Of a stretch of 64,000 nt of DNA, positions 9,401 through 46,253 are shown in pieces. The stretch covers positions 6,510,001 through 6,574,000 of the forward strand of contig NC_079878.1 in the NCBI RefSeq assembly GCF_029227915.1, given 5' to 3'. This stretch comes from Hydractinia symbiolongicarpus. Its lineage: Eukaryota > Cnidaria > Hydrozoa > Anthoathecata > Hydractiniidae. The notes below the pieces were generated by a model. That model ran no database searches, was not told where the DNA came from, and worked only from the letters and a program-made list of their open reading frames with translations. A program made the translations under genes and the position numbers. Numbering within the stretch: the first letter of the stretch is position 1; each line of letters starts with the position of its first letter.

Positions 9401-12400
9401 TGAAGTCAAGTATTTCAGATGATATTATAAGCGTTGCATCGTCGGTGTTGTGCAATCTGTTGCTGCATTTTTCACCTTGCAAAGAGGTATATTATTTGTG
9501 GATGAGATCTTTGTTTGTCAGGCCAATCTATTTGTATACTTTTTTCTATATGACAACTCCAGCCCGGCAAACTGAGCTGAAAAAATTTAATTTTTTATGA
9601 TTACAACGAAATATAATTGTTTCTGAGAACAACAAGTTATAACTGCTCGTGAAAAAAGACAAAATGGAATTATTTGCGAGAACAACAAAATATAATTGTT
9701 TGTGTGAACAACAGAATATAATTGTTTGTGTGAACAACAAAATATAATTGTTTGTGTGAACAACAAAATATAATTGTTTGTGTGAACAACAAAATATAAT
9801 TGTTTGCAAGAACGACAAAATATAATTGTTTGTGAGAACAACAAAATATAATTGTTTGCAAGAACGACAAAATATAATTGTTTGTGAGAACAACAAAATA
9901 TAATTGTTTGCAAGAACGACAAAATATAATTGTTTGTGAGAACAACAAAATATAGTTGTTTTTGAGAACAACAAAATATAGTTGTTTGTGAGAACAACAA
10001 AATATATTCGTTTTTGAGAACAACAAAATATAGTTGTTTGTGTGAACAACAAAATATAGTTGTTTGTGAGAACAACAAAATATAGTTGTTTGTGAGAACA
10101 ACAAAATATAGTTGTTTGTGAGAACAACAAAATATAGTTGTTTGTGAGAACAACAAAATATAATTGTTTGTGAGAACAACAAAATATAGTTGTTTGTGAG
10201 AACAACAAAATATAATTGTTTGCAAGAACGACAAAATATAATTGTTTGTGAGAACAACAAAATATAGTTGTTTTTGAGAACAACAAAATATAGTTGTTTG
10301 TGAGAACAACAAAATATATTCGTTTTTGAGAACAACAAAATATAGTTGTTTGTGTGAACAACAAAATATAGTTGTTTGTGAGAACAACAAAATATAGTTG
10401 TTTGTGAGAACAACAAAATATAGTTGTTTGTGAGAACAACAAAATATAGTTGTTTGTGAGAACAACAAAATATAATTGTTTGTGAGAACAACAAAATATA
10501 GTTGTTTGTGAGAACAACAAAATATAGTTGTTTGTGAGAACAACAAAATATAGTTGTTTTTTAGAACAACAAAATATAGTTGTTTGTGAGAACAACAAAA
10601 TATAGTTGTTTTTTAGAACAACAAAATATAGTTGTTTGTGAGAACAACAAAATAGAATTGTTTGTGAGAACAACAAAATATAGTTGTTTGTGAGAACAAC
10701 AAAATATAGTTGTTTGTGAGAACAACAAAATATAGTTGTTTGTGAGAACAACAAAATATAGTTGTTTTTGAGAACAAAAAAATATAGTTGTTTGTGAGAA
10801 CAACAAAATATATTCGTTTTTGAGAACAACAAAATATAGTTGTTTTTGAGAACAAAAAAATATAGTTGTTTGTGAGAACAACAAAATATAGTTGTTTTTT
10901 AGAACAACAAAATATAGTTGTTTGTGAGAACAACAAAATATAGTTGTTTTTTAGAACAACAAAATATAGTTGTTTGTGAGAACAACAAAATAGAATTGTT
11001 TGTGAGAACAACAAAATATAGTTGTTTGTGAGAACAACAAAATATAGTTGTTTGTGAGAACAACAAAATATAGTTGTTTGTGAGAACAACAAAATATAGT
11101 TGTTTGTGAGAACAACAAAATATGGTTGTTTGTGAGAACAACAAAATATAGTTGTTTTTTAGAACAACAAAATATAGTTGTTTGTGAGAACAACAAAATA
11201 TAGTTGTTTGGTTATTACAGGCTGTTGAGTGATTTTTTACTTACTACTATATTAATAACAAACTTGAAATGTATTTCCTTTTTATTCCTCTTGTTCGTTT
11301 GTTTATTTTGTTTAAAAATAAATTATAAATCTACATTCCATTTTTTAATTGTTCTATGCTAACTATAACGAGAAATGCAGGATATGCGTTTGAAAGTTAA
11401 AAAATAAAAACTCATAAAGCAAAGTAAATATTTGACTTTTTAGTAAATATTAAAATTTTAAACGAATCATCTATTTGTTTTTATACCTTCGCTACTTAGT
11501 ATTTTTAAAAAATATTTTTCATCCGTCACATTTACATGAAAAGTGATGTTAGGTTTGGTTTCTTTAAACACAGCTCTTATAATGTAAACAGACTTAAATA
11601 GTACATATTAAGAACAATAACTCCCGCTGAAAATTAATTTAAATGGTTCACGTCTTTTTCTTTCAGTTCTTCCCACGTGGGAACATGACAAGGGGTACAA
11701 CCCCTACATTCTTCGTAGGTGCCATATGGCTTTAGTGGCAGTGAAGTGTTAGTGAGTTTGGATGACGAGTTAATCGATTATTTCCACCCCCACGTTAAAT
11801 AAAATGGAATCATTGTCTTCCTAATGGAATAAAATTTACTTTTTGTCCGCATTTAAGTTTATTTTGTCTACTTTATAAAGAAATAATCTTCTTAGGAGGA
11901 ATAATGCACCTTTCCGTTCACGATTTGTCTATGTTTCATGTTTTGCAAGATATTGTTATTCTTATTTGACCACAAGTAGCCAAAAGCCCATAAAAGTTTT
12001 AAGTATGACATCCATTTTGTTTGTTTTGAAGGCGTTGGTTGATTATGGTGCTTTGGACGTCTTAGTTACGTTAATAAAGAGGAAAGAAGTTCCTTTCAGA
12101 GTGAACGGTGTATGGGGTTTGATGGTAAGTTAAAAACTGGCCTACAATCCCTAATTTTGTGTTAGAAAACAAGACGTTACAATGCCTAGTCTAAAGGCGA
12201 GCGTTAGGATTTTTTGTGCTGATCTTAAATTGTTTTTATTTTCCCGAAGACATTCTATAGCAAATTTTAAGCCGTTTATCGTAACAATTTCAAAAGTGGG
12301 CGTGTGTATAGTGCTCATTTAAGTTTATTAGCAATGTATTTTTTTTTTATTTAGAACCTAGCATATGACGCCAATGATTCTCTAAAAAATAAAATTATTG

Positions 12401-28900: not shown

Positions 28901-31900
28901 GTTGACCTTCTAATGCACAATGGTTGTTGTATGAAACAGGAAAAGTATCCAAATGAGAGAAGAGCTTTGTTATACACAACAAATAAAAGAAAAGTGAGAG
29001 GACTTTCAACAAAAGGTTACTTATTTTCTTAAAACGTCTTGCTGGAAGTAAATTCTATAAAACTTTTGTAGAATTTTTCATAATCGCTATGCAGCGAAGG
29101 GTAAACAGGATTATGGCAAATTTTGAATGTGACTGGGTAAAATAAACAGTGATAATGCTGAAATGCTTGGGATTCTTTGCTGCACTTTGTCTTTTGCAAA
29201 ATTCAAGCAGACGCTAAATGTCTATGGAAAAAAATTGCGACCAAAAAAAAAAAGAGTTTTTTAATTTTCACGATGCAAAAATGTAAAAGCAAGTGACTAA
29301 AAGCGCCAAACAAACCAAAACAGTACTGCTACCTTTATTGCCAGCTGGCGTCTAATACCATTTTCAAAGTCGTTTTTCATGCTTTCCACCATGCTGTCTT
29401 CACCACCTTGCATACGTGTTTCTTGGAACAGGTTGCTTAGCTAAAACAAAGTATATTATATCAATAAAAAACCACAAACAATTCTATATATTTATTTCAG
29501 TGCAGTTTTTATTTCCAAACACTTTATTGCTTGTGTTGCAATGAAATGTTCAAGCATGAAACACATTATAAACTTAACGCAAACATCTTTAAAAATCTTT
29601 AAACTTTGATCAGTCATTTAAATATAACTAAAGACAAATAACAGTGCAAGTGTTATGTCATGTAAATTCGATTTTTGCATAGTTTACAATAAAATAAATA
29701 AATAAAATGTTACATTATTTTTGATAATCACATTTGTGTGCTTCTCACTCAGCATACCTAACTACAAGGGTTATGCTGAAAAAGAACTACTTTGTTCATC
29801 ACTAACATACTGCCTGGCAGTGAGCGAGATTCGATCCGCGGTCCCCATAACTGGGAGCCGCAGACGAACCCACTACACTACGTGCGGCAATATGGTAGTG
29901 ATGAACTCAGATAGTTTATCCGGATGGTGTGTATACATAGGTGAATATTTAATATATAAATGTGCTATGATAAATATTCACCTATGTACAAGGGTTATAT
30001 TGCCAAACTAAAGTTATTGCGATTTTGAATGGTGTGAAATGAGAGGTGGGAAAAAACGTTATTGAAAAAATAGACAGTTTCCTGATTTTATTTTTTTTTA
30101 TCTTATTTTATTCACTATACTGGTATTCAAGAAAAATGTTTGCGAAATTTTAAATCACTTTTGCAGAAAAATCACAATTTAAAGAATCAAGTTAAAACGG
30201 ATTAACTGCAAAACCGTGCTCCCTGAAGAAGCCTGTAATATTTACTACTACTTTTTTCAACTAGAAATAATAGTGAATAAGCAATATAAAAAATTACTAA
30301 TAGCTATACAAACTTGAATATAAATTCATAGCTGAAAAAACTATGTAGAGTACACATGTAAAATGAAAAGATTAATAATAGAAGACATATTTAGAAAGGT
30401 CAAAAACTTACTTCATTTGAAAATAATAACCACCTAAAAATCATAACGTCAAAAAAAATATGGACACGAGAATTTTGAACATAAATAAAAAAGATGAAGA
30501 AAACAATGAAATGGATGGTTAACATTTATATTTGTTGTTTTACATTGAGTATACATCTATCTGAGCAAAATCAAATTGAATCAGTGAGAGTGATTACATG
30601 GACAACAAATCCACCATATTATCTGCAAGCCAGCTTTCGTAAAGATGAACACCACACAGGAATCATCATGACTCTTTTACAAACTTCAAAAAATATATGC
30701 TTGCAAAAGAATGAATTCACTAAAATAGTACATGATGACGTCAATCTTATAAAAACACATGAAGAACTTGTAGGATTAATTTTACAGAATGACACAGAAC
30801 GTATGCTTCGAAATTTAAATATTACTAGAGACGAAAAACAACTGATTGTCATTGGAGCTTCCTCATTCGCCCATTTAGACGAGGTCAACAAAAATTTTAG
30901 CATCAAGACATTAGTTAACTCTGAACGAGCAGCTGTTATAGTCCACAGCAACGACAACTTGTTACTTGTCAAATTTTTCAGTGCTATAAGTCAATGTTAT
31001 GTTGTAATATATTTTGCAGCTATTGTGGCCATTATTGTTGCAACAGCAGTGTGGCTGCTGGAACATCAAATTAATGAAAACATCCCAAAGACGTTTAGCG
31101 AAGGCCTATGGACCTGCTTTTGGTTCTGTTTTGTCACAATGACAACAGTAGGATATGGTGATATCGTTGTTAAGCATTTCGTGACAAAGACAATAATAAT
31201 TATATGGATGGTGTTTGGCCTAATGATGACTTCCATGATTACAGCCACTGTTCTCGAGGAGCTTCAACAGGCAGTGGATACGAAAGGCCACCATGTGTCA
31301 GTCTTATCAAAATCTACCGAAACAGAATTGGTTACACAACAATTACATGCAAAACCAATAGAACTTGAGACGTATGAAGAAGTTTTAAATGCTGTAAAAG
31401 AAAGAAAGGTGAAAGCTGCATTAATAGATGCAAATGTTGCAGCAGTTTTGTTCAACCAAAAACAATCTGATGAGTTAATTGTAGAGAGAATTCTTACTGT
31501 TTTGATGCCCATAAACATTTTTATCCTGTCAAAGAACTGTTCGACAAATGCACTGGTAAATGCAGATCAACGCAAAAGTATAGAAGCTATATACATTCCA
31601 CCATTAACTACAAAACTTTACCACATTAGGGCATTCACAAAGATTTTTGAGAAAACAGATAGTGGTGAGATATTATATACTACAATTGTTGCAGGCTTTC
31701 TTGTCTCAGTAGCAATTTTGACAGAGTGTATTAAATTCATGAAAACTAAACTCAATAGCAGGAGAGTGGAAAGCAAAAATTGCAAATCTGTTGATTTAGA
31801 AAACAGACGGTTGAAATTAATTGCAGATTTAAAGAAACTGATTAATGATCTAGAAAGTAGAGAGATTCAAAAACTCGAGCTATCAAACATGGTGTGTAGT

Positions 31901-34900
31901 TAATAATATCTGGTATATATAAATATATGTGTATTAAGACGTTTTTACATGAAATATCAATTATATGTGGATGTAGCATACATGATTTAAGAGTCACCTT
32001 TTTAGAACTATAATTTCTGCTTTTTTTGAAAAACATCTCTCTAAAATCAGTTTAATTTTGACCTTTTTATTGAAGCCAGCAATGCATCACAATTAGCTGT
32101 TAACAATTGTTTTTATTGAAGGAATGTGCCTACACTCAACAAATATAGCAAATATGGCTATACAGCAAGAATTATTTTTGTGCTGTTTTGAAAGTTTTAC
32201 AGAACATACTTGAGTTGTTTCAAAATTTATACAGCAAGTTATTCTTCTCCAACTTAAAATAATGAAAAAACAAAATTTATTTTGATACAAAAGTTTAGTG
32301 TTTTTTTAATGTTTTTTGCGCAGTATTATAAGAAAAACTAATTTAAGTGCAAAATCTTTTTACAGACTATAGTTTAGTTGACAAAATTTTACGAAAGTTG
32401 AGAAGAGTCAACCAAAAAATATATTTCAAATCCATAAATATATTTCAAATCAGTAACAGAATTTTTTTGAGATCCGAAAATATAATTCAAATCCACAAAT
32501 AATTTCAAATCCGAAAATATATTTCAAATCAACATATATATTTCAAATCCGAAAACATATTTTAAATCCACAAATTATTTCGATCAGCGAAGCCTTGTGG
32601 CTATAATGGCATATTAACGGCTGCAAGTGCATGCTTTTGCTTTCGTTGTGGAAGAAAATTCTACTTAAAGGAGTTGTTCTGTTCTAATTGTAGAATGGAA
32701 AGACGTGAAATAAAAACTGAAACTGCAACACACAACAAATGTGTGGAAGATGTTATTAAATATTACTTTAATAAGGCAAATGAGTACAAAAAGATAGTTA
32801 TGTATTTAAAAAATTACCACAAGATTGATATCAGTGTCAGCACTTTAAAACAGCGTCAAAGACTGAGGGGATTGAAAAGGAATGAAAAACCTGATGTGGA
32901 TTCTTCAATTCGTCAAATTATCAAAACCAAAATTTTAATTACAAATAGAGTCAAGAGTTATCGTAGCATTTGGAACAAGCTACGTGTGATACACGACATT
33001 TCAATAAAATGTGATGATGTTAAGAAAGTTGTTAGGGAAATCGATCCTATAGGCTCTCATAACAGAAGCGCGGTAACTTATACGTAGAGTTTACAATTCA
33101 CCTGGCCCAAATGCTCTATGGCATGCCGATGGCTATGACAAGTTGAAGCCTTCGTACCAATAATAATCCTGTAATACCTGCTCACTTTTTCCCAAACGCT
33201 CTTGACAAATTTAAAATTTGTCCAGATATAGTGAGGATACTGATTGTGGTACTGAAAATGGTATAATGGCAAGTAAACAGTCACTTATTTATAACAATGT
33301 TAATGCACATTAATATGGAACTTCACAGTCTAATCAAAGGATTGGAAATTAATGGTCTTATTTTAAGCGAACGTACACAACTTGGGTAATTGACTATTTC
33401 AAAGATATGGTGGAAAGTGACGCACTTTGTGTAAGTGATCATTTTCAAATGGAATGCGCTTTGGTTTTGCTATTCATGGTTAATACAATCAGAGTTAGAC
33501 AAAACGAGAGACGAGTGGAATTCACACACTATAAGAAATACAAGGAATGCTAAAATATGCGAAATACTTGATGAAATGTTTTATCTTCCAGAAAGTTTTG
33601 GCCTTCTTCAACAAAGAAACGTACATGAGGAAACTGAACATGTTCTTAATGACTGCGACAAAGAACTAGTTGAATATTTCAACAATGTCTTTGGACAGTT
33701 TGGCTACACTATGCTCCTCATGATTAGTAAAAAGCAAGACAAATATACGATAATATTATTTCTGCAGGAACATAGTTTCTTTTTGTTATATACATACTTC
33801 TTCTGTAAGCTAATGTAAATACATTAAAAATGACTCTATTGTTCTTATACTTCAAACACTATCTGCATGTGCTTCAATTACTGAGAATCTTTTATTGCAT
33901 ATGGGGAAGAAACCATATTTCACACTGCCAGTACCACTACCGCTGGCTTGTTCTTCATGAATAGGATCGGCACTATATTCATTTATGAATACATCGGGGT
34001 TAAAATTTTTATTGTCCTCACTTTCGCTCAAAGTATCATCCAAAGTAATATCAATTGGACTTTTTGAGGCATCAAGAAGTTTCCGAGTTGTTGCAGATTG
34101 TAAATTGCATCCTTTGCATAAATAAAGGTCTACTTTTGAAAATGGTTTAGCTAGCTCCTTTTTGTATTTGTCAACAGCAAAAGCTGTTTTTATCATTTCG
34201 ACCACCTTCATGTCGGGGTATAGCAAGACATATTCTTCTAGACCACAGAAAAATTGGTCATGGTCTGCATGATTTTTGTTTGGCATCCCTATGGAGCAAT
34301 CCTTGTTCATTCTCTCTTATAATTTCAACATTAATAACAACACTTTCCGTAGATGTTTTACTATGTAAAGATACAATCTTTGCTTTCTTGCTTTTAAAAA
34401 CCATGTTACTACTATTTCTTCCTAGATCATCACCAGTACTTTCTTCTTTGTTGACTGTATTGGCCTCTTTCTTTCAGAATCGTGATGTTCTTTCATTTGA
34501 CTTAATTCGTTGATAGTCTATCAATGTCAATTTTCTGCTTTCTTTCTTATTTCCTTTCCACAATACAAGCAGAAATAATCACCACAAAATTTGATTTTCT
34601 TTCCACATGACGAACAAAAACGGTCCTCCATGTTTGTTTACAAATCATGTCGAGCACACATGACTATATGCAGGGCCTTAGATCCAGGGGCAGGGCCCTG
34701 GGATAATTGGATTTATAAATTATTTTTGTGGATTTGAAATTATTTTGCATATTTGAAAAACATCTGCGGATTTGAAATTTATTTGTGGATTTAAAACATA
34801 TTTGTGGATTTAAAATTCAAATTCGAATATATATTTGTGGATTTGAAATGTATTTGTAGATTTGAAATATATTTGTAGATTTGAAATATATTTGTGGATT

Positions 34901-37900
34901 GACCCTTCTCGGCTTCGAGAATATTTAGTCTTTCGCAGCATTAAATTATTTAAAATTCCTAACAGAATATTCTACCTTGTTTTTATTGTTTTTCCTAAAT
35001 AGTATTGACTAAAAGTCTTGAATATTAGATATTTTAGTTAGCGTAATTTAAACTTTAAACATATATAATAATCATAACGAAGGAGGGTGTTACAGCAATA
35101 ATAAACTTTTTTACGAGATGGGATTTTTGTTTGTTTTCCTTTTTTTAAAAAAAACTTTTTTGCTTGATATTATGTTTTTTTCTCCATAGAACAACTAATT
35201 AAGTTGGAGTCGTTAAAACAAGAAAGAAGCTTATGACGAAGAAAATATTTTTGATTTAAAAAAACAACAACAACAAAAAATATTATTAATATTAAAGGAT
35301 ACGGTAACCCCCTGACACACATACTCAGTATATTTAAAATATCCCCTCTGCTCGCTATATTAACCCTAGCAAATATATATATTCTGAAAGTCGAATAAAT
35401 TATCTCTAGAATGATGATAAAATATTTTTATAAAAAAATACAAAAAGTTGAAAAAAAAATTATATACAAAAATTCACCCTTCCAGTTCATTTTGTCGAAC
35501 ACTCCCCTCAGTTAAATTTTTGTTCGTTGAAAAAAATATCATTGCAAAACTCTTATTCAACTCTAAAAAAAAATGCTTTCTTTACTCAAAACAGCATGTG
35601 GTTCCAAATCATCTCCATTCATCATTCTCGGCTTAACGTCTGTTTTCCATGCTAGCATGGGTTGGACGGGGTATATTAATGACCCTCTTCCAATCTGATC
35701 TAGACTGTGTTGGATCTAAACTCAACTTCCTCTGTATTAAGTCTGTCCTTATAACCTCCTGCCAAGTCTTTCATGGTCTGGCTCTGGGCTTTGCGCCAGG
35801 AACTATCAAGTCTCTACACTTTCTTACCCAATTATCCCCCTCCATTCTTTCCAAGTGCAAAAATATAGCATAATTTGTGTTACAATAGCTGTTTTATCTA
35901 TTTTTAAGCAAGATAGATCAATAACTCATTTTTCCTCACTTTCTGCGTTGGAAAAAACAAAGTTTTGTAGCCAAAGATATAATTGTCTCAACAACTTTTT
36001 TTCGTACAATTTCAACAAGATGGAGGGAAGTGTTTGACAAGATGGAGGGAAGTGTTTGACAAGATGGAGGGGAGAGTTCGACAAAAATATATACCGTTAC
36101 GACTGAAAATTTTAATTCAAGAAAAAGCAAATCAAAGACCTTTGCTTTTACCTGCAAGAATCATGGTTACACCAACTTAAACGTTATGAATAATTATTTA
36201 TATAAAATTAAAAGTAAAGTGTTTTCGCAGAACTTTGGGTCTAGTTCTTGTTAAACAGACAACAGGATAAAATAACATAACAAAAACAGAAAAAAATAAA
36301 GAAATAAATTATAAAGGTATAGATGATAAATAATAATGTATTTTATTTGTATAGATTATTAAAGTGTGAATGTTTCCCTTGTTACGTGTTGAGATGCAAC
36401 TCTCTTTAATTATTATACAGATTAATTATATGATGCATTAGAATGGAGTAACTATAGAGGTTTGATGTTGGTTGATCAAGTAATGAAAGTTATTGAAAGA
36501 GTGATTGTTAAGTTACTTAGAGAAAGAATTGATATAGATAAGATGCAATTTGGTTTTGTTCCAGGGCATGGCACTACAGATGCAATATTTTTACTCAGAC
36601 GGCTTCAGGAAAAGTATTTAGGAAAGAGAAAGAATCTCCATTTTGCCTTTGTAGATTTAGAGAAAGCTTTTGATAGAGTGCCACGTAAAGTTATTTGGTG
36701 GGCTATGAGAAAATTAGGTGTGGATGAGTGGCTAGTTACGATGGTACAGTCTATGTACAGCAATGCTACAAGTCGTGTCAGGATTAACGATTCACTTAGT
36801 GATGAATCTAGTGTAAATGTTGGTGTACATCAGGGTTTTGTACTTAGTCCTTTGTTGTTTATTCTAGTCTTAGAAGCACTGTCGATGGAGTTCAGAACAG
36901 GTTGTCCATGGGAGTTATTGTATGCAGATGATTTGGTTCTCATAGCAGAGTCGATGGAAGAATTAGTTGAAAAGTTTGAGAAGTGGAAGAAAGGACTAGA
37001 AGAGAAACGGCTAAAGGTAAACACAGCAAAGTCCAAAGTCATGATTAGTAGCATTGCAGCCAAGTGTGACCTTGTAGTTCGAAAGTGGCCTTGTGGAGTT
37101 TGCAGGAAAAGGGTTGATGGTAACTCAATTTTTTGTCAGACTTGCAAGCATTGGGTACATAAGAAGTGCAGTAGTATTAGTGGAAAGTTAAGGGCTGACA
37201 TTCAGTTTGTATGCAAGCGTTGCAAAGGTGAGATTATAGAGAATGAACTATTTCCAGCTTTAATGATGTACAACAGTGGCTCGTTAGAGATAGTTGAGAA
37301 CTTCTGTTACTTAGGTGATATGTTGGGCAGTAAAGGGGGTGTTGGAAGAAGTGTTACTTGCAGGATAGGTTCTGCTTGGAAAAAGTTCAGAGAGTTACTT
37401 CCTTTGTTGACTAGCAGAGCCCTGTCAATTGAGGTAAAAGGTAGGTTGTATGAGGCCTGTGTAAGAAGTGTTATGTTGTACGGTAGTGAGACATGGGCAG
37501 TGAAGCAGGATGATCTTGACCGTTTAGAAAGGAATGATATGAGAATGGTTAGGTGGATGTGCCAGTCTGAGAGACAGAAAGAGTTTAGATGAGCTATAAA
37601 GCAGGCTAAGTCTCCGTAGAATTAAAGATGTTATCCAGATAAGAAGATGGAATTGGCTGGGGCACTTGGAAAGAATGGAGGAGGATAATTGGGTAAGAAA
37701 GTGTAGAGACTTGATAGTTCCTGGGGCAAAGCCCAGAGGCATACCGAGAAAGACTTGGCAGGAGGTTATAAAGACAGACTTGATACAGAGGAAGTAGAGT
37801 TTAGATCTAACACAGTCTAGATCAGATTGGAAGAGGGTCATTAATATGGGGTATATTAATGACCCCATGCTAGCATGGAAAACGGACGTTAAGCTAAGAA

Positions 37901-44980: not shown

Positions 44981-46253
44981 TTATCTATTGTAATAGCAAA
45001 AAGTGTCTATTCTGCTTTGGTGTTTATCGATAAATTCATCTCCTATTTGAGTTAAATCCATTTTGTCAACGGAATCAGTATGAATATGGAGGACCATCAA
45101 ATTGTTCGAACGTAAATTCGTGGTTGTTGATCTAAGGTACGTTTTGACTCGTTTCAAAGCAGAAAACGATCTTTCGCTGATGGCGTTTGTGGACGGCATT
45201 ACCAACAACAATTTCGCAATTTTGACAACTTCACTTAGAAGAGTTCTTTGAGATTGATCAAAACTTTGTAACATGAAAATGATATGTTTCAGGAGGGCCA
45301 TCTGATACTTTGTTAAAATAATCTGGCATCTTTCTTTTTCGTGGGAGTTTAGGATCAGATACCCCAAGTTGTGATTTCCAGACAAGAACTCGCTCCCAAA
45401 ATAGCTCAAACAATTCGTTGCTTCTGATCTTCTCTAACACAGCTAAGACTCCCGACACCCGTTGCTGTCCCTCTGCTGCCGAAATATCTCCTTGGAGAGA
45501 CCTGCTAAGATTATCTGTATGTTTCAATAGGGTTTCACCAAGACAACAGCAGAAGACAAAATTAAAACTAGACATAACAGTCATTACTCCGTTGATTCTC
45601 GCTCTCATATCTGGAAGCTTAACATTCCATAATGACCATGTCCAAAGCTCCATTAATTCCTTATGGTTTTCAAGAAAGGATTCAAGAACCTCACCTCGCA
45701 CAGTCCATCGTGTAGGAGAAAACTCATGGACCGACTTGGATTCATTTCCTGTTGCTTCTCTGATATTCTTTAATTGTGTGTTTCTCTTTGGCGATTTTTT
45801 GACAAGTTTACATATTTCATAGGCAGTTCCAAACGCTTCTTTAAGTTCAGGGATTTCTTTTATCACATCGCCAACAGCTAAATTCAAAGCATGTCCGTAA
45901 CAGTGTGTGTACAAACATTTTTCATTCAACCATTTGATTTGGGTAGCAACTCCAGATCTCAAAGAACGAGGTTGGTTCGGTTTAGATGGATCACTCGTTG
46001 TTTCCTTAAAATTATTCTCCGGGTTTGTTGGTGCTGTTGTTGTAGGTGTCGTCGTTGTAGGTGTTGTTGTTGCTTCTTCGTTTGTTCGTCTGAAAAGCAA
46101 AACAAGTGTAAAGGTTGCTTGGATAACAGTTATGGGATGAATTAAAAAGCAGTGGTGGGGTTAACAAAGTAATTAAATATTTATTTATTAATAAGTCACT
46201 TACTTTTCAGGTCTAATGAGCCATTTTGATAAATCACTTGTTTTCTTCGGCAT
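44981..46253 (-). pseudogene. hAT-family transposase (ZMYM1-like), decayed
   Basis: A short first exon (46,253-46,204, MPKKTSDLSKWLIRPE) joins in phase through a GT-AG intron to a long block from 46,089. That block has a Thr/Pro low-complexity run, then RSGVATQIKWLNEKCLYTHC and YGHALNLAVGD, and the conserved FSPTRWTVRGEVLESF. The central DUF4371 portion expected before the first of these is missing, so the gene has an internal deletion. A frameshift in the 45,258-45,409 overlap separates the C-terminal dimerisation domain (SEVVKIAKLLLVMPSTNA, SERSFSALKRVKTYLRST). The mobile element would need an outside transposase. Confidence 0.82.

Follow-up and report, generated by a model that had tools for sequence, protein, structure and literature searches.

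The 64,000-nucleotide stretch of Hydractinia symbiolongicarpus analysed here (assembly GCF_029227915.1, contig NC_079878.1, positions 6,510,001 to 6,574,000; hereafter the window) carries on its forward strand, at positions 30494-31903, an intact single-exon gene for a 469-residue protein, named P0001, which is probably a subunit of a ligand-gated potassium channel of the GluR0/AvGluR1 type. The domain order of the protein, its potassium-type filter, the homology of its pore and second lobe to bacterial receptors and its place among 21 or more intact single-exon genes of one family were demonstrated, and the best reading of these genes is a family of ligand-gated potassium channels that resembles the ionotropic receptors and has expanded in this lineage.

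Architecture of P0001 and its single-exon family

Translation confirmed the intact frame of the original prediction, which starts with an ATG at 30494 and ends with a stop codon at 31901-31903, without internal stops. It lies in a stop-free run of 472 codons (30485-31903), and about 3e-13 chance occurrences of a run of this length are expected in a window of equal base composition. A chance frame or a pseudogene was ruled out because of the frame length and the 20 intact paralogues described below. The parts follow one another in the order signal-like N-terminus, S1, M1, pore loop with TTVGYGD, M3, S2, M4 and charged tail (Table 1). The topology of an ionotropic glutamate receptor (iGluR) with the filter of a potassium channel, as originally proposed, was thus recovered, with TTVGYGD inside an iGluR-type pore and in the place of a Q/R/N-type loop. 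Hydropathy maxima fall at residues 170-188 (M1), 233-251 (M3) and 398-416 (M4), and TVGYGD begins at residue 218; an extra maximum at 328-346, inside S2, would by alignment be part of the lobe.

Table 1. Parts of the P0001 gene, with window coordinates and the basis of each assignment
Feature	Residues	Window position	Strand	Basis
Signal-peptide-like N-terminus	1-24	30494..30565	+	hydrophobic start in translation
S1, first half of binding lobe	25-157	30566..30964	+	W..(K/P)P(Y/F)....G near start; conserved Cys69
M1 helix	165-191	30986..31066	+	hydropathy; alignment with bacterial M1 (IIWLVER)
Selectivity filter TTVGYGD of pore loop	217-223	31142..31162	+	sequence motif
M3 (gate) helix	228-258	31175..31267	+	hydropathy; MITATV in place of expected SYTANLAAF
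S2, second half of binding lobe	261-392	31274..31669	+	S274-x-E276; D312
M4 helix	393-419	31670..31750	+	hydropathy peak 398-416
Tail and stop codon	420-469	31751..31903	+	charged (translation); cytoplasmic by inferred topology

A search of the assembly itself (480.9 Mb, 76 contigs) with P0001 gave 42 matches including the query, 30 of which have loci; nine of the 12 matches without a locus were examined and three left out. The family profile scored 24 loci at 306-560 bits, values that are high by construction because the members built the profile, and then nothing above 94 bits. Intact full-length single-exon frames of 419-516 amino acids are found at 21 of the 24 loci, P0001 included. The lone compact subunit originally envisaged has therefore to give way to a set of 21 or more intact paralogues, whose subunits might assemble in mixtures. 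Broken frames, proposed as a check among individuals, were sought among the paralogues: besides the 20 further intact copies, five are broken or partial, namely L022 (without S1), L038 (truncated), L032 (interrupted by three stops within its match, most of which is nevertheless spanned by an open run of 458 codons), L042 (also with three stops) and L045 (a short piece). Paralogues are clustered at C13:7.74-7.85 Mb, C5:21.36 Mb, C4:24.85 Mb and C7:7.88 Mb, and the nearest to P0001 are 30-40% identical to it.

The potassium-type filter extends throughout the family: 16 of the 21 intact members have TTVGYGD exactly and five have a closely similar sequence, all 21 fitting [ATS][TS]VG[YF]G[DE]. The predicted lack of the SYTANLAAF gate motif was borne out, SYTA occurring in none of the 21 members, while T250 is present in every one. 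W187 and E190 in M1, P41 and G56 in S1 and an M4-like hydrophobic stretch are likewise common to all 21, as is hydrophobicity close to the N-terminus in the alignment, which is weakest in L036. The length of the tail differs between paralogues. Cys69 is kept in 19 of 21, and a cysteine occupies the column of A353 in 20 of 21, P0001 having Cys349 nearby; if the fold is right, both cysteines would lie in lobe 1 and a disulfide is possible.

Other potassium-filter genes of the genome are more distant. Kv-type channels match the family profile solely in the pore, at 44-70 bits; L043, L044, L049-L053, L055 and L057 are Kv-type by eye, L054 is a Kv-like piece and L056 has no frame with the filter. 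L049-L053 are themselves contained in single frames of 402-484 codons, and L049 and L050, on one contig, are nearly identical. Two further loci, L040 and L041, contain potassium-filter iGluR-type exons split by introns, as read by eye, with a CCGxC motif in S1. L041 scores 93.8 bits against the family profile in a match spanning the filter, S2 and M4, and the one exon of L040 scores 68.4 bits, which is not above the best Kv piece; on a short, weakly resolved pore tree the two pair up, and they fall inside the family with a support of 77. It is possible that the single-exon family arose from L040/L041-like genes by retrocopying.

Homology of the pore and S2 to bacterial GluR0-type receptors

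A partly hand-built query retrieved three prokaryotic S1-pore-S2 genes, among them L001, which encodes an S1-pore-S2 protein carrying TTVGYGD in an Anaerolineales metagenome-assembled genome (Chloroflexota). With L001 as tblastn query, 109 plasmid records were matched, 29 with a query coverage of 80% or more, and 12 were retrieved; together with the three prokaryotic proteins these formed a bacterial profile of 15. The potassium filter is kept in only one of the 15, L001. The 12 plasmid-borne proteins (L004-L015) have the receptor layout with the GYGD filter missing in every case. A pattern search of viral contigs (IMG/VR) yielded two distinct GluR0-type proteins with TTVGYGD, L046 and L048, as well as L047, a partial twin of L046; L001 or its alignments matched no viral contigs, and among phages two records in the pore only. 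P0001 as query found no relatives in the phages, viral contigs and prokaryote genomes searched, and 38 plasmid records with matches centred on the pore.

BLASTP aligned P0001 with L001 at 79 bits and 32% identity over 158 amino acids, covering M1, the pore loop, M3 and S2. Against the bacterial profile P0001 scored 61.9 bits, and when its S2 was shuffled the mean fell to 37.5 and the maximum to 44.0 bits, with none of 200 shuffles equal to the real score. S2 alone reached 23.0 bits against a best of 10.9 in 2000 shuffles, and the S2 of the family scored 46.2, the highest of 100 shuffles being 15.8. Comparison of the family with three bacterial proteins by hhalign gave a probability of 99.6 for an alignment of 299 columns that extends from S1 into late S2, most of the signal coming from the pore and S2. 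At the level of sequence, the pore and lobe 2 of P0001 were thereby shown to be homologous, in the same order, to those of bacterial GluR0-type receptors. P0001 thus has the S1-M1-P-M3-S2 order and the lobe 2 of solute-binding-protein (SBP) type expected of the iGluR superfamily; the bacterial frames stop after S2, without M4.

Contrary results and rival explanations

The reading of P0001 as a ligand-gated potassium channel has to contend with results that weigh against it, concerning the pore, the lobes and their models, the substitution rates and the permeability of such filters. As regards the pore, Pfam recognises no other part of P0001: Ion_trans_2 tops the ranking (1.3e-12), followed by Ion_trans (5.3e-8) and Lig_chan (3e-7), the last scoring 30.8 bits and so lying exactly on its cut-off (30.8); 20 of the 21 family members matched Lig_chan at E <= 0.01. 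In a pore-only BLAST of P0001, L001 came first with 63.2 bits, followed by slowpoke (43.5), a Kv of the same genome (43.5), Lmo2059 (41.6), a second own Kv (40.0) and TOK (37.4), and the GluR0-type pores of L046 (32.0 bits) and L048 (26.6) ranked behind these potassium channels. The family pore profile scored L001 at 101.2 bits, the own Kv L044 at 69.5, L048 at 68.4, L046 at 66.9, Lmo2059 at 56.2 and slowpoke at 48.9, and a pore tree of 92 columns left the deep branches unresolved and the family not separated from potassium channels. The pore alone would thus favour L001 yet not part GluR0-type proteins from potassium channels, and the case for a receptor therefore rests on S2. These pore results, together with the weak evidence for S1, could speak for an ordinary two-helix or voltage-gated potassium channel fused to unrelated extracellular parts, its iGluR likeness being that of the shared pore. 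We regard such a fusion as very unlikely, given that S2 is homologous to that of bacterial receptors and stands in the right order, and that neither a voltage sensor (segments S1-S4) nor a T1 region was seen in the P0001 frame, whereas both are visible by eye in the Kv-type L049-L053 of the same genome.

The lobes escape the curated profiles. P0001 matched neither SBP_bac_3 nor Lig_chan-Glu_bd at E <= 1, its joined lobes matched no Pfam family at E <= 10, and none of the 21 members matched the curated ligand-binding-domain profiles at E <= 0.01, so that, of the profiles originally proposed for the search, Ion_trans_2 and Lig_chan were matched and SBP_bac_3 was not. Since the same profiles score the control L001 strongly (84.7 bits with SBP_bac_3, 46.4 bits with Lig_chan-Glu_bd), the lobes of P0001 must be much diverged, and the evidence therefore had to come from the bacterial relatives and the 20 paralogues. 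A sequence search of the Protein Data Bank with the lobes found four chance-like chains at E <= 10 and no receptor or SBP chain. S1 contributes nothing to the score against the bacterial profile, which was equalled by 188 of 200 P0001 sequences with S1 shuffled; alone it reached 3.9 bits, as did 25 of 2000 shuffles, in a single aligned stretch at the expected place. Between family and bacterial S1, hhalign gave a score of 21.5, the alignment being in register over its first 36 columns, where column shuffles had a mean of 10.3 and a maximum of 15.6 (n=100), but the probability was low (8.9%) and a mismatched comparison, bacterial S1 with the S2 of the family, scored higher (33.2).

The single-sequence fold, with a mean predicted local distance difference test score (pLDDT) of 36.1, was of no use, and the alignment-based model was poor (mean pLDDT 47.9, predicted template-modelling score 0.33), with S1 not confidently folded and whole-chain template-modelling scores of about 0.2; its fold is moreover biased, because the alignment held five bacterial-type receptors. 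The best 50 of 224 Foldseek matches at E <= 0.001 were all AMPA or NMDA receptors, and the lobe-2 model was matched to GluR0. The binding-protein-like clamshell of the original prediction is accordingly established in part, namely for lobe 2, from both its sequence and its model; lobe 1 is represented by weak profile statistics.

It might be argued that the lobes are vestigial, that is, that P0001 is a leak or otherwise gated potassium channel in which the one-time binding lobes take up no small ligand and have a role in folding, assembly or adhesion instead. In addition to the unmatched binding-domain profiles, this would agree with the column of the carboxylate-binding Arg, which holds E114 in two alignments (S1 being aligned there across gaps), and with the S2 acid, which is D312 in P0001, D in six of the 21 members and N in 14. 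The lobes are nevertheless conserved at other positions, P41, G56, S274 (19/21) and E276 (20/21) being kept in 19-21 of the 21 members, and they appear constrained in omega, the ratio of nonsynonymous (dN) to synonymous (dS) divergence. Among 12 paralogue pairs more than 50% identical, which leave out P0001 and several of which have saturated dS, omega was estimable in 11 and lay at 0.12-0.48 overall, at 0.13-0.29 in the pore, at 0.20-0.54 in S1 (11/12 pairs) and at 0.08-0.56 in S2 (10/12 pairs). The dN of the pore was below that of S1 in 12/12 pairs and below that of S2 in 10/12. Vestigial lobes are thus an unlikely explanation. Glutamate is itself unlikely as the ligand of the family, because the SYTA gate motif is not kept and the Arg column appears not to be, and canonical binding of a simple alpha-amino acid would not be expected; the early doubt about glutamate, and about the likeness of the lobes to classical ones, is supported.

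The filter, lastly, could belong to an excitatory or non-selective receptor, canonical in sequence yet passing Na+ or Ca2+ when open. AvGluR1 is described as permeable to Na+ despite its TXVGYG motif (PMC3483616), whereas elsewhere GluR0 and AvGluR1 are called K+-selective (PMC11479355; PMC12226733). With a potassium-type filter in 21/21 members, we consider an excitatory or non-selective receptor hardly probable.

As a ligand-gated potassium channel, P0001 would be one subunit of a tetramer. Judging from its anatomy, a ligand would close the extracellular clamshell, the closed clamshell would pull the M3 helices and open the K+ pathway, and the cell would be hyperpolarised or shunted. The set would most likely work like the ionotropic receptors (IRs) of protostomes, with many tuned sensors on one pore and an inhibitory rather than excitatory output, because the Arg column appears not to be kept, the lobes change faster than the pore and the filter is kept in all members. 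More tentatively, an animal lineage may have assembled, independently, a repertoire of IR-like chemoreceptors from a glutamate-receptor pore selective for potassium, in which about two dozen single-exon genes, derived from multi-exon potassium-filter iGluR genes still in the genome, would report different extracellular chemicals by silencing cells. A family that has been kept and expanded would show that the potassium-filter pore is not just a leftover in animals, and would supply native eukaryotic proteins for testing how iGluRs went from K+ to cation conduction; inhibitory chemoreceptors as a set, if true, would also be a new answer to the problem of chemical sensing by simple nervous systems.

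The window also holds features of other kinds. About 600 bases upstream of the P0001 gene, at 29810-29895, a tRNA-like stretch with the look of a short interspersed element (SINE) was seen by eye; ARAGORN reported no tRNAs in the window. A tandem array at 9579-11210 shows self-matches shifted in steps of about 26 bases, and its long minus-strand frames stay open. A reverse-transcriptase frame and a PHD finger share one open frame at 36426-37592. Minus-strand frames occupy 44981-46160, the part at 44981-45433 having a hAT dimerisation region and the adjoining frame, up to 46160, matching no Pfam family.

Comparison with known receptors

The literature search, which covered titles, abstract openings and passages, mostly of open-access papers, turned up no description of a family of this kind in cnidarians. 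The word potassium is absent from the main text of one survey (PMC6307864), no potassium-filter cnidarian class is named in the consulted parts of this and a second survey (PMC12226733), and a review of single-cell data from Hydractinia mentions iGluR terms for a single type of neuron but gives no details of sequence (PMC12464821). In the passages and abstracts of the reviews and surveys consulted, AvGluR1 is the only animal glutamate receptor with a potassium filter that is named.

To our knowledge, the metazoan AKDF, NMDA, Epsilon and Lambda iGluRs all have a Q/R/N-type loop and a SYTANLAAF-like gate. Such a loop and gate are described in a review (PMC11479355), and these classes have the superfamily topology in common with P0001 (PMC6307864, PMC12226733), but the P0001 family has neither the SYTANLAAF-type gate nor the Q/R/N-type filter of AKDF, NMDA and Epsilon receptors. 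Its members keep TVGYGD and are single-exon, unlike protostome IRs. Many IRs have lost the glutamate-binding Arg, and we know of none with TVGYGD. They do form, as here, large and divergent iGluR-derived families (PMC2924276, PMC7882480).

The parallels originally drawn with GluR0 and AvGluR1, the potassium-filter receptors named in reviews (PMC12332018, PMC12226733, PMC11479355, PMC3483616), are supported. GluR0 of Synechocystis and GluR0-type proteins (1ii5, 2pyy; L001, L046, L048) share with P0001 the S1-M1-P-M3-S2 order, TTVGYGD and the homology of pore and S2, which is best for L001. GluR0 is without M4 (PMC11479355), unlike P0001, which in this respect resembles AvGluR1. The latter, from the rotifer Adineta vaga, likewise combines a TXVGYG filter with the eukaryotic topology including M4 in an animal receptor (PMC11479355, PMC12332018, PMC12226733, PMC3483616). 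It is activated by several amino acids (PMC12226733), whereas the Arg column appears not to be kept in the P0001 family, and by comparison with AvGluR1 as described, the family is set apart by its at least 21 single-exon copies.

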